DNA of 61,847 nucleotides from a virus: IMG/VR virus record IMGVR_UViG_3300027499_000001, positions 1 through 61,847 of that record; one strand, 5' to 3'. The notes under the pieces were generated by a model. The model was not told the DNA's origin. It ran no database searches and saw nothing but the letters and a program-made list of their open reading frames with translations. The translations under genes were made by a program, and so were the position numbers. Positions 58,018 through 61,847 of this stretch are shown piece by piece; the first letter of the stretch is position 1; each line of letters starts with the position of its first letter.

Positions 58018-61000
58018 TTATTTTTGGGTTTCTTTTTGCCTGCTTTGGGCTTCCAGCTCCACCGCCAGTCGACGCCCAGCCGGGTCACGCACCGTCTCGC
58101 CCAGGTACTTCTTTAAGTTGGCCCGTTTCTTCTCGGGGCTTGGTACGGTTGTCGGGAATGGGGCCCTGCCCACCTGCGCACCAATTGCCGATGCGTTTCT
58201 CATCCGCGCCGCAAAATCATCAGGCAGTTGGCCAGTACCAAAGTACTTTGCCCTTTCCTTCTCCGTCAGTGTCTTAAACGCCGCACTCCGACGGGCATTG
58301 TCCAACTCCGTGAATTTTTCCGGCGCACGTCTAGCCAAAAGACTCTCAAGCCCCGCGCGCGCACCTTTAACCAGAGGCGCAACAATCATTTCTGGGTATG
58401 ACCCCTCAAGCCCCTGCTCACGTTCAAGCTGCGCCCTGTAAGCAGGGCTGGACATGTCGCCCTTCTCCAGTACGCTGACAAATCCGCCCTTGTTAAAGCG
58501 CTTGGGGGGATTGTCAATCGTGGCAGACTGCGACTGGCGACGGCGCAATTCTTTATCCTCGCCCTCGTTCAAAGACACCGGCGTCAGCGCTGTCCCCATA
58601 GCCGTACTTGTCTTGCCCAACACAGCCATCAGGTCCGTTGGAGACACATCCATGTCCCGCAAGAAAACTCCCAGTTTTTTTAACGCTCCCAACTCTTCTT
58701 TGGCACTGCCTGCCTTTGCTTCCCCGCCCTTGTTAAAGCGCCTCTTGGCCAAGGTGTTTTTGGCCAGGCTTGATTGCTCCAAGGTCGGCGCGCCAAAGGT
58801 GTCAGCGGATAGGCCACGGGCCTTGTTCTTGACAGCCTTGATCTGCAGCTCATACGCCCGAACAAGGTCGTCCATCTGCTCGCGCGCAGAACCCTTTGCC
58901 CCGTCTTTTTCCTCCGCTGGAGTGGACGACGTGTCAAGCACCATCTGCTTGGACTTGGACAGCGGAGCCACTTTCAGGTTCATCTCCTTAGAGCGAGAGG
59001 CATCACTGCCCGCGCCGCGAGAAACACGCTTCACGCTTTGCCGAATGGGGGCTGCCTTGCTGTTGATCTTGGTCACGCTGCTCAAAAGTTCCTGCGCTGT
59101 GCCCAAAGGATTTGTATCAATAACATCGCTTTGTTCTTCTTTATTTTTTTGTTGAATGTAATCAGTAATCAACTGTGAATTACTTGCGACTTCTCCGCCT
59201 TCTTTAAGCAGTTTAGGCCCACTTGTCGGACCTTTAGCAAGAGTAATTGGAATGTCGCTTGTATCACGCTCCATTGTGCGCACTGGACCACGCATTAAGA
59301 CTTCGTTTTCAAACGCGTTTGGACCAATGGTTGGCGCAAGCGCCGTTGGTAGTAGGGGCTTGGTAGGTGGACGGAATGTGGGTGGCATAACAGGACGCGT
59401 GGGTGTGCTGCCAATGCCAGGAGTCGAAGGCGTGGTGTTTTGCCCAAACGCTGTCGGACCCCTAACAGTTGCTACTGGTATGTCGCCTGTATAAGACTCG
59501 GGCGGTGCAACAACGGGGGGTCTAACAGGCGGTGGCACTACAGGCGGTGGCACTACAGGTGGCGGCACTACGGGTGGCGGCACTACGGGTGGCGGCACTA
59601 CGGGTGGCGGCACTACGGGTGGCGGCACTACGGGTGGTGTAACAGGTTTAGTTGCCTCTGCTGTTTTTGAGTCAAGAAAAGTTTTTGAAACTTTATAAGC
59701 TAAATCGTTGTCCCCTGTTGACAGGGCCCAGTAAATTTCGTTTTTGACACTCTGTGGCACATCTAAATAACTGTAATGATCTGGAGATGCCATAAAGTCA
59801 TACGGACTAGGAAGGCTTTGAGCTGAACCCCCCGTTGAAAAACGACGAACATATGGATTGCTCACAACCTCTCCTCCATTTTTTAGAAATCTAGGCATTG
59901 CAGGAGCTGCAATAACATTTCCAAAACGATCTACCTTAGCCCCTAAAACATCGGAGAGTTGAGCGTTTTGGCCTGCAATTTGAGCGGTTAATTGACCTGT
60001 ACGGATTTCGTCTATTGAAGGCGCTGCTGCCGTCGCAGAAAAGTTGCCTGCGCGATCCTTTGTCGTTCCAAAAACATTAGACAATTTTTTGTAGCTGCCT
60101 AATGTATGAGGGTCCAAACTGCCTGCGGCAAGAATATCTGGCGTAATTTTTCCCGGCGGGAGTATGTCAGGCAGAGGCGGTGCTACTACAGGCGGCGGCA
60201 CTACAGGCGGCGGCACTACTACAGGTACCGGTATTTCAGGTGTAGAAGAAACAGGACGCTTTAAAACTTCCTTTTCAAACTCATTGAGCCCCGACTGTAA
60301 TGAGACAGGGGTAACTGGCGGAGGAGTTCTGGGAGCTTTAGGTGGTACGACAGCGGGTGGCTTTGGACGCATGGTGTTTTGTCCAAACGCTGCAGGACCT
60401 TTAGCAAGGATAATAGGGATGTCGTACTCAACAGGGGGCACTACAGGCGGTGCAACTGGCGGTGCAACTGGCGGTGCAACTGGTGGTGGAACCACTGGTG
60501 GTGGAACCACTGGTGGTGGAACCACTGGTGGTGGAACCACTGGTGGTGGAACCACTGGTGGAACCACTGGTGGAACCACTGGCGGTGGCACTACAGGCGG
60601 TGGCACTACAGGCGGTGGCACTACAGGCGGTGGCACTACTACAGGCACCGGTATTTCAGGTGGCGGTGCTACGGGTGGCGGTGCTACGGGTGGCGGTGCT
60701 ACAGGGATATTCGAATTAACTTGCCCAGGCAAGGCCGCAGTTGGACCCGTGTAATTAACCTGACCAGGCAAGGCCGCAGTTGGACCTGTGTAATTAACCT
60801 GACCAGGTAAGGCCGCAGTTGGACCTGTGTAATTAACCTGACCAGGCAAGGCCGCAGTTGGACCCGTGTAATTAACCTGACCAGGCAAGGCCGCAGTTGG
60901 ACCCGTGTAATTAACCTGACCAGGTAAGGCCGCAGTTGGACCCGTGTAATTAACCTGACCAGGTAAGGCCGCAGTTGGACCTGTGTAATTAACCTGACCA

Positions 61001-61847
61001 GGAAGCTCGGCCAAATCAGATTTAGCCGTGCCAGCGTCCCCTTGTACAGGAAATCCAGCGTCCCCTTGTACAGGAAATCCAGCGTCCCCTTGTACAGGAA
61101 ATCCAGCGTCCCCTTGTACAGGAAATCCAGCGTCCCCTTGTACAGGAAATCCAGCGTCCCCGAGTCTAGGGAATCCAGGAATCTCTTCTAAATCGTCTCG
61201 AGCTGACTTTGACCCTAGCCCGCTTGTAGGGGTTGTTGTTTGAACAAGCGAAGAATCTCCAGCAGGTGTTCTATACGCCGCCATAGAAGGGTCATTGGCG
61301 TTGTAAAGCGCCATCATCTGGTCAAATTTTGACATTGGCGCAGGGCTGTTTGACGGAGGACGATATACCTCTGTTGGTACAGCCGCAGCCGCCTTCGGAG
61401 AAGCAAACGGCGAAGGTGCAGCCGTAAATCCCCTCATGTAAGATTCAGCCGCAGATTCAAGCCCAGACGAGGTTGGGGAAGCAAACGGCGAAGGTGCAGC
61501 CGTAAATCCCCTCATGTAAGATTCAGCCGCAGATTCAGGCCCAGACGAGGTTGGAGAAGCAAACGGTGAAGGTGCACCGCTGCCCGTAGGCAGCCGAAAC
61601 GTACTCCCCATAGATGTGCCAATCGTCGACCCGCTGCCCGTAGGCAGCCGAAACGTACTCCCCATAGATGTGCCAATCGTCGACCCGCTGCCCGTAGGCA
61701 ACCGGAACGTATCACCCATGGATGTGCCAATCGTCGACCCGCTGCCCGTAGGCAACCGGAACGTATCACCCATGGATGTGCCAATCGTCGACCCGCTGCC
61801 CGTAGGCAACCGGAACGTATCACCCATGGATGTGCCAATCGTCGACC
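58018..61847 (-). CDS. Giant tandem-repeat protein, main part (runs off the window end)
   Basis: Continuous with 1-513 across the window ends. About 1,275 residues lie here. Repeats in order (N to C): 18-residue Gly/Ser/Thr units (61567-61847), 26-residue Ala/Ser/Pro units (61403-61575), 8-residue GDAGFPVQ units (61027-61170), 13-residue [13 protein letters not shown] units (60713-61005), and PPVVPPP-type segments (60185-60700, 59515-59645). Between them are segments with [14 protein letters not shown] and [19 protein letters not shown] motifs, and a helical C-terminal domain. The C-terminal part is more complex and may be the folded domain. Function unknown; location between terminase and portal suggests a virion role. 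Confidence 0.8.
59515..59645. repeat. Proline-rich microrepeat (PPVVPPP) block, distal
   Basis: Successive 15-base units encode PPVVP on the minus strand with mostly synonymous changes, for about eight copies. They form a flexible proline-rich linker. Copy number is likely unstable. Confidence 0.85.
60185..60700. repeat. Proline-rich microrepeat blocks, proximal
   Basis: Two clusters of Pro/Val or Pro/Ala units (60185-60225 and 60435-60700), 9, 12 or 15 bases each. They are close to the distal block in sequence, pointing to copying within the gene. Confidence 0.85.
60713..61005. repeat. 39-bp tandem repeat (13-residue unit), about 7 copies
   Basis: Each 39-base unit encodes [13 protein letters not shown] on the minus strand. 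Seven copies differ mainly at synonymous positions (CCC/CCT). Unit length is a multiple of three, so copy changes keep the frame. An additional related phrase exists near 120-145 and 220-245. Confidence 0.9.
61027..61170. repeat. 24-bp tandem repeat (8-residue unit), 5-6 copies
   Basis: Nearly identical 24-base units encode QGDAGFPV on the minus strand, with a final degenerate copy. Sequence identity between copies is almost complete, so it is a recent expansion. Confidence 0.9.
61403..61575. repeat. 78-bp repeat (26-residue unit), two copies plus a partial
   Basis: Units begin at 61403, 61481 and 61559 (78 bases apart). Each encodes an Ala/Ser/Pro-rich 26-residue peptide ending in YMRGFTA. 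Copies differ by a few bases. Confidence 0.9.
61567..61847. repeat. 54-bp tandem repeat array, right end
   Basis: Two copies of one variant (MGST) followed by three full copies of another (MGDT) and an 8-base remainder. The last 116 bases equal the first 116 of the window. Total copy number cannot be told from this sequence. Confidence 0.95.

Follow-up and report, generated by a model that had tools for sequence, protein, structure and literature searches.

A repeat-rich phage gene between terminase and portal has a conserved block followed by exchangeable C-terminal modules and is a candidate effector carrier

We analysed a viral DNA stretch of 61,847 nucleotides (IMG/VR virus record IMGVR_UViG_3300027499_000001, positions 1 to 61,847; here called the window). 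Its giant repeat gene is probably a modular effector carrier of the polyvalent type in a tailed phage, which would be made together with the packaging and head genes and whose C-terminal tips would act on the host at entry; we put the probability of this reading at roughly 0.6. Near-identical phages differ by one module at a conserved block in this gene, which points to a slot for effector cassettes resembling polyvalent proteins. Neither the conserved carrier block nor the exchangeable C-terminal modules were noted in the first-pass annotation of this DNA. Of the two halves of the gene, the exchangeable tip behind its conserved junction is of greater interest; the repeats are conspicuous but less informative.

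Results

The gene crosses the contig ends and is flanked by the terminase and portal genes

The open reading frame at 58018-61845 (minus strand) is open at the contig end and resumes at 513..1 (minus strand). The contig is terminally redundant, with an exact 116-bp direct repeat common to both ends (and also one of 62 bp) that lies inside a 54-bp array. If the ends are joined without overlap (513+3830 nt), the total is not divisible by three; therefore, the contig ends must overlap and the gene truly crosses them. The merged gene runs on the minus strand from 513 to 1 and then from 61847 to 58018, and its 4,227 nt encode 1,408 amino acids plus a stop codon, in agreement with the gene of about 1,400 codons described earlier. 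Because the overlap is located inside the 54-bp array, the copy number of this array (5 after merging) is a minimum.

Parts of the gene:
1..513, minus strand: 5′ part of the gene, ATG at 513 with AGGAG shortly upstream; the N-terminus MNRVYSTAEMNAPGIS is conserved
1..513, minus strand: repeats TPIVR x4 (15 bp) and SYTPP x3 (15 bp), then the start of the 54-bp array
58018..61847, minus strand: remainder of the gene, ending with its stop codon at 58018-58020; after merging, the protein has 1,408 aa
61732..61847, no strand assigned: 116-bp exact direct repeat of window positions 1-116, contig-end overlap in the 54-bp array

An N-terminus related to MNRVYSTAEMNAPGIS is present in the relatives L007 and L008. 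The position between terminase and portal, also described earlier, is borne out by the flanking genes for TerL (551-2056, phrog_38, E 7e-111) and the portal (55621-57960, phrog_1216, E 1e-38). The repeat gene is located upstream of the portal gene, separated from it by 57 bp; a GroES-like protein, the major head protein and an SU10-type adaptor are further neighbours. The GroES-like co-chaperonin (54738-55241) is encoded between the portal and the head genes and is kept in the Pelagibacter, Caulobacter and DSL-LC04 relatives.

Three further observations were made elsewhere in the window. An apparently intergenic stretch upstream of TerL (2200-2470) is dense in short repeats (ACCATGC x4.9 and GAACCGCGAACCGGGAGACGC x2.1) with scattered GCGAACC/ACCATGC words, and could be a packaging or origin site. 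A 138-bp imperfect tandem repeat (1.8 copies, 46941-47189) lies in the open reading frame 46646-47464 near tail-fibre-like genes, and a kinase-like protein (phrog_10255, E 8e-52) is encoded among the tail genes at 42633-43541.

The N-terminal half consists of in-frame repeat arrays

Altogether, about nine in-frame repeat arrays were found in the merged gene, while 100 first-order shuffles of the gene yielded one array in total. TRF recovers the previously listed units of 15, 24, 39, 54 and 78 bp (the 15-bp unit in several unrelated arrays) together with the proline microrepeats, and adds one of 12 bp; all are multiples of three and in frame.

Repeat arrays:
61577..61847, continuing at 1-125, minus strand: 54-bp (18-aa) array, found by TRF
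61397..61576, minus strand: 78-bp (26-aa) array, found by TRF
61031..61178, minus strand: 24-bp (8-aa) array GFPVQGDA, found by TRF
60714..61002, minus strand: 39-bp (13-aa) array, found by TRF; copies differ only synonymously
60430..60702, minus strand: first block of Pro-Val microrepeats (12 and 15 bp), found by TRF
60175..60225, minus strand: short 15-bp Pro/Val array between the two Pro blocks, found by TRF
59497..59646, minus strand: second block of Pro-Val microrepeats, within a stretch of about 0.7 kb that is missing from the close relative L010

The stretch missing from L010 lies between about 59095 and 59902. A degenerate larger duplication is also present inside the repeat gene (60175-60429 and 59215-59499, with the pattern DIPI..GPxAFGQNT...LN/AFExEVLxR). 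A search of viral contigs with the DNA pattern of the 39-bp unit of the window returned no other record.

The seven 13-aa units are identical at the protein level and differ in their codons alone. Taken over the repeat copies, 10 distinct changes are synonymous and 5 non-synonymous (site-corrected N/S ratio 0.19, Fisher p 0.001), which indicates that the repeat copies are under purifying selection. In the same slot of the relatives, the array period is divisible by three in 103 of 103 arrays, whereas outside the slot the same contigs have 100 such arrays among 128. Arrays account for 3.5% of the bases in the slot and for 1.2% outside it. Since all units are multiples of three, changes in copy number alter the length of the protein and not its frame. 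These patterns indicate that selection favours a protein that is variable in length yet stays in frame, not a frame switch, and they do not support the earlier suggestion of on/off phase variation. Judged from its composition, with 21.7% proline, the hypervariable N-terminal repeat half is probably an unfolded arm.

Repeat copy number differs between otherwise identical genes

The slot genes of L007 and L088, which come from two metagenomes, are 5,571 and 5,493 nt long; over the 5,493 bp that they have in common they are identical, and a single 78-bp indel separates them. This indel corresponds to exactly two 39-bp units of the array TLPGQVNATTPGA, which is present in seven or five copies; the unit is related to the 39-bp unit of the window, and both share an LPGQVN core. 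That these genes, identical in all else, differ by exactly two whole units suggests that the in-frame length variation is probably natural, although copy numbers in short-read assemblies could be misjudged. This agrees with the expansion or contraction of units proposed in the first-pass annotation. A difference in array length between L003 and L057 was also considered as natural variation and was rejected, being only a contig truncation.

It is very improbable that an assembler created or inflated the repeats at the contig ends. The 54-bp array contains both ends of the window contig and also the end of L097 (IMGVR_UViG_3300027114_000070; break at L097 8389-8487); in addition, short-read copy numbers are unsafe, the 78-bp difference between L007 and L088 included. 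However, L097 represents the virus of the window in another metagenome and is 100% identical to it over 8,487 bp, the smaller arrays included. Moreover, the units are in frame and under purifying selection, similar arrays occur in many independent contigs, and contig ends are not enriched in the repeat gene (within 4 kb, 15 upstream versus 22 downstream ends).

A carrier block defines a family of viral slot genes

The last third of the protein contains a block that is conserved in 35 aligned members, includes the sequence SARxQMExLAxxYxLK and ends with RFxKGGEAKK. This carrier block was found at at least 135 loci, 80 of them distinct, and the earlier statement of no homologous family is wrong at the sequence level. 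For the window protein itself Pfam and PHROG gave no model match, only a low-complexity match to Extensin_1 below the cut-off, and a tblastn search of the C-terminal region against annotated phages gave no match; relatives are recognised by the carrier block. The same search that identified the viral loci found the block in no genome of the GTDB collection, which suggests that viruses carry it and that it is apparently uncommon in prophages.

Across 80 related viral contigs, the open reading frame in front of the portal gene occupies the same slot and is generally long, reaching 1,857 aa, and the gap to the portal gene is mostly 8-66 bp. Compared with shuffled proteins, those in the slot contain 2.4-fold more aromatic-x(1-3)-GG motifs; other genes of the same contigs show no enrichment.

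Modules are exchanged at the junction behind the carrier block

Directly behind the carrier block, about ten clearly different C-terminal modules are found across the relatives. Clustering gave fifteen approximate classes, of which one is a contig fragment (L148), several have single members or weaker carrier matches, and another (type 3) lumps chained modules together; the count is therefore stated as about ten.

Carrier block and modules of the window:
58711..59133, minus strand: conserved carrier block, 94.5% DNA identity to L010
58724..58741, minus strand: module-junction motif GCGCTTTAACAAGGGCGG (RFNKGG), copy 1, exact 18-bp direct repeat
58502..58710, minus strand: tip module 1, homologue of a module that is present in L127 and absent from the near-identical L126
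58484..58501, minus strand: module-junction motif, copy 2, exact 18-bp direct repeat of GCGCTTTAACAAGGGCGG
58021..58497, minus strand: C-terminal tip module 2 (159 aa), common to L006 (86%) and to L007 and L088 (78%)

The clearest case is the pair L126/L127. These contigs are 99.6% identical up to 7 nt past the end of the carrier and then again 99.96% identical over 4.8 kb; the difference, at L126 3333-3360 and L127 2707-2880, is a 153-nt module. Three further pairs show the same arrangement, with identities before and after the module of 97% and 94% (L051/L052), 93% and 94% (L049/L051), and 91% and 95% (L063/L064). In all three the breakpoint in the DNA lies 1-7 nt behind the block, and the sequences match again from RAEGSPxEGEVS or KHGG(A/T)V onwards. 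Between the window and L010, DNA identity is 94.5% in the carrier and 94.3% in the portal gene, but the tips are unrelated. In the window, the two copies of GCGCTTTAACAAGGGCGG bracket tip module 1, with 0.03 such occurrences expected. Comparison of these DNAs indicates that modules are gained, lost and swapped, with breakpoints at the carrier junction and at a second conserved junction downstream. The family thus shows a constant region with a junction motif that is followed by an exchangeable C-terminal domain.

Relatives carry effector-like and polyvalent-type domains in their tips

All evidence on module function comes from the relatives and none from the tip of the window. Among 36 scanned members, DUF6973 was detected in 11 (E 1e-11), and LPD23 and PcfJ in two each; the LPD23 match in L049 (E 2.7e-10) is above the curated cut-off and the PcfJ match has an E-value of 5e-9. 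An HExxH protease-like motif is present in type-4 tips as HEMAH, and L036 and L051 carry HExxH. Relatives have a DUF6973, HExxH or LPD23 module, which is followed by a PcfJ-like end. An ART-PolyVal match in L063, with an E-value of only 0.057, and a SprT/M91 match are both below the cut-off; the tips of L063 and L006 are possibly ART-like as judged by eye, the match not being significant.

The DUF6973 profile aligns with the Bacteroides fragilis T6SS effector BteO (PDB 9uu0, E 0.0013), including the residues RH...HE...D..NN. An AlphaFold model of DUF6973 (pLDDT 88) retrieved 9uu0 with Foldseek at rank 2 with a probability of 0.90, the E-value being weak at 0.66. The tip of the window is of the short helical type and matched no known domain and no recognisable enzyme. 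The model of its carrier and tip has low confidence (pLDDT 60, pTM 0.19) and was therefore left out of the fold search. In L007, a homologue of tip module 2 is followed by a further end that looks PcfJ-like, which the window protein lacks.

The tips also bear on whether the gene encodes a structural virion protein that serves as spacer, surface or decoration component, with a length tuned by the repeats and C-terminal modules that are incidental passengers. We regard this as unlikely. Conservation of the repeat units at the amino acid level, variation in whole units, the proline-rich arm and the virion-gene neighbourhood would all fit such a protein, but the tips are wholly different between near-identical phages, they resemble effector or polyvalent domains, unlike spacer proteins, and no similarity to tail-fibre or decoration families was seen. 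Of the role proposed in the first-pass annotation, the spacer part is partly supported. The conserved carrier and the exchangeable modules point to a polyvalent or effector-type protein and away from a plain spacer or decoration protein; surface exposure is not supported.

Named relatives with and without the slot gene

By portal identity, the nearest named records are DSL-LC04 (72%) and the Pelagibacter phages HTVC027P and HTVC023P (46%); Roseobacter CRP-901 and Caulobacter phages are further portal relatives. DSL-LC04 is a metagenome-assembled phage (PMC10611076). It encodes a protein annotated as PcfJ-like (WJZ48068.1, OR003939) in the same slot between TerL and portal; this protein has only 825 aa, and the carrier block was not detected in it by profile. 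The slot of HTVC027P is occupied by large genes for two hypothetical proteins, gp41 and gp42, in which the profile likewise did not find the carrier block. In CRP-901 and Caulobacter RW, such a gene is absent from the interval that separates TerL and portal; it is therefore dispensable in the wider group.

Short-tailed phages need ejection proteins, and the slot gene could encode an internal, pilot-type protein with an essential role in DNA delivery, its modules being wall-passage functions matched to host envelopes and not effectors directed at host metabolism or defence. The relatives look short-tailed (a Pam1-type adaptor is annotated in DSL-LC04) and the composition of the protein is helical and of low complexity. 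However, such a role is improbable given the absence of the gene from CRP-901 and RW; in addition, separate large genes of the tail region (25621-34438) are better candidates, and LPD23, PcfJ and DUF6973 are not known as wall-passage domains.

Discussion

We favour the polyvalent-type effector carrier. For polyvalent proteins of portal-terminase phages, packaging and injection have been predicted (Iyer et al., 2017, PMC5512222). Like them, the slot proteins are large and encoded with virion genes, and in relatives they may be multidomain; the window gene has this virion-gene context in a portal-terminase tailed phage, and relatives carry LPD23 (above cut-off), PcfJ, DUF6973 and HExxH modules. 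They differ in having one conserved carrier block with a precise junction before the exchangeable tips, and an N-terminal half that is a repeat-built arm. The slot probably works like, and by context belongs with, polyvalent proteins. This holds for the family slot and is not proven for the window protein, since the window member has no recognised domain of the polyvalent repertoire.

In the mechanism that we propose, the protein would be packaged in the head beside the portal and would leave with the DNA. The carrier could be the packaging or recognition element that loads it there. The repeat arm may serve as an unfolded leader or tether that tolerates length changes in whole units and would suit passage through the narrow portal and tail channel. 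Upon entry, the C-terminal modules would act on host components or host defences. Exchange of the modules probably occurs by homologous recombination, for which the conserved sequences of carrier and junction would serve at one end and the conserved downstream linker or the portal gene at the other.

A conserved carrier with a variable C-terminal tip beside the portal gene is also reminiscent of the MuF polymorphic toxins, which share the location in the packaging module and combine a constant N-terminal with a variable, toxin-like C-terminal part (Jamet et al., 2017, PMC5576092). A classical toxin of this type, with an immunity gene and killing competitors of the lysogen, was rejected as highly improbable. 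Pfam MuF gave no match in 36 members at E 0.01, the slot gene is located between TerL and portal and thus upstream and not downstream of the portal gene, and the short gaps to the portal gene leave no room for an adjacent immunity gene. The carrier, to which MuF is unrelated, is absent from the bacterial genomes searched (GTDB), no integrase was found among the window ORFs scanned, and there is no sign of lysogeny.

Bacterial polymorphic toxins (CDI/Rhs/T6SS; Biol Direct 2012, PMC3482391) likewise combine a repeat-rich part, a conserved junction and C-terminal tip exchange, and the DUF6973 tip family is common to the relatives described here and to the T6SS effector BteO. Here, in contrast, no secretion domain or immunity partner is found, and the protein is phage-carried and presumably virion-delivered.

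In a broader form, which we advance tentatively and at somewhat less than even odds, virulent aquatic phages may keep an effector-cassette locus between terminase and portal. It would encode a capsid-packaged carrier with a disordered arm evolving in length and with an RFxKGGE junction where near-identical phages swap modules directed at the host. This would be the phage equivalent of tip swapping in polymorphic toxins, with the host as its target during entry. If this is true, a conserved and searchable junction motif marks where abundant aquatic phages swap proteins that are delivered at infection, and the modules behind it, about ten types so far, are a catalogue of candidate anti-host or anti-defence effectors. 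L126/L127 and L051/L052, natural pairs of near-identical phages that are set apart by a single module, are clean test cases, and the repeat arm offers a natural series for studying the effect of unfolded-arm length on loading or portal passage.
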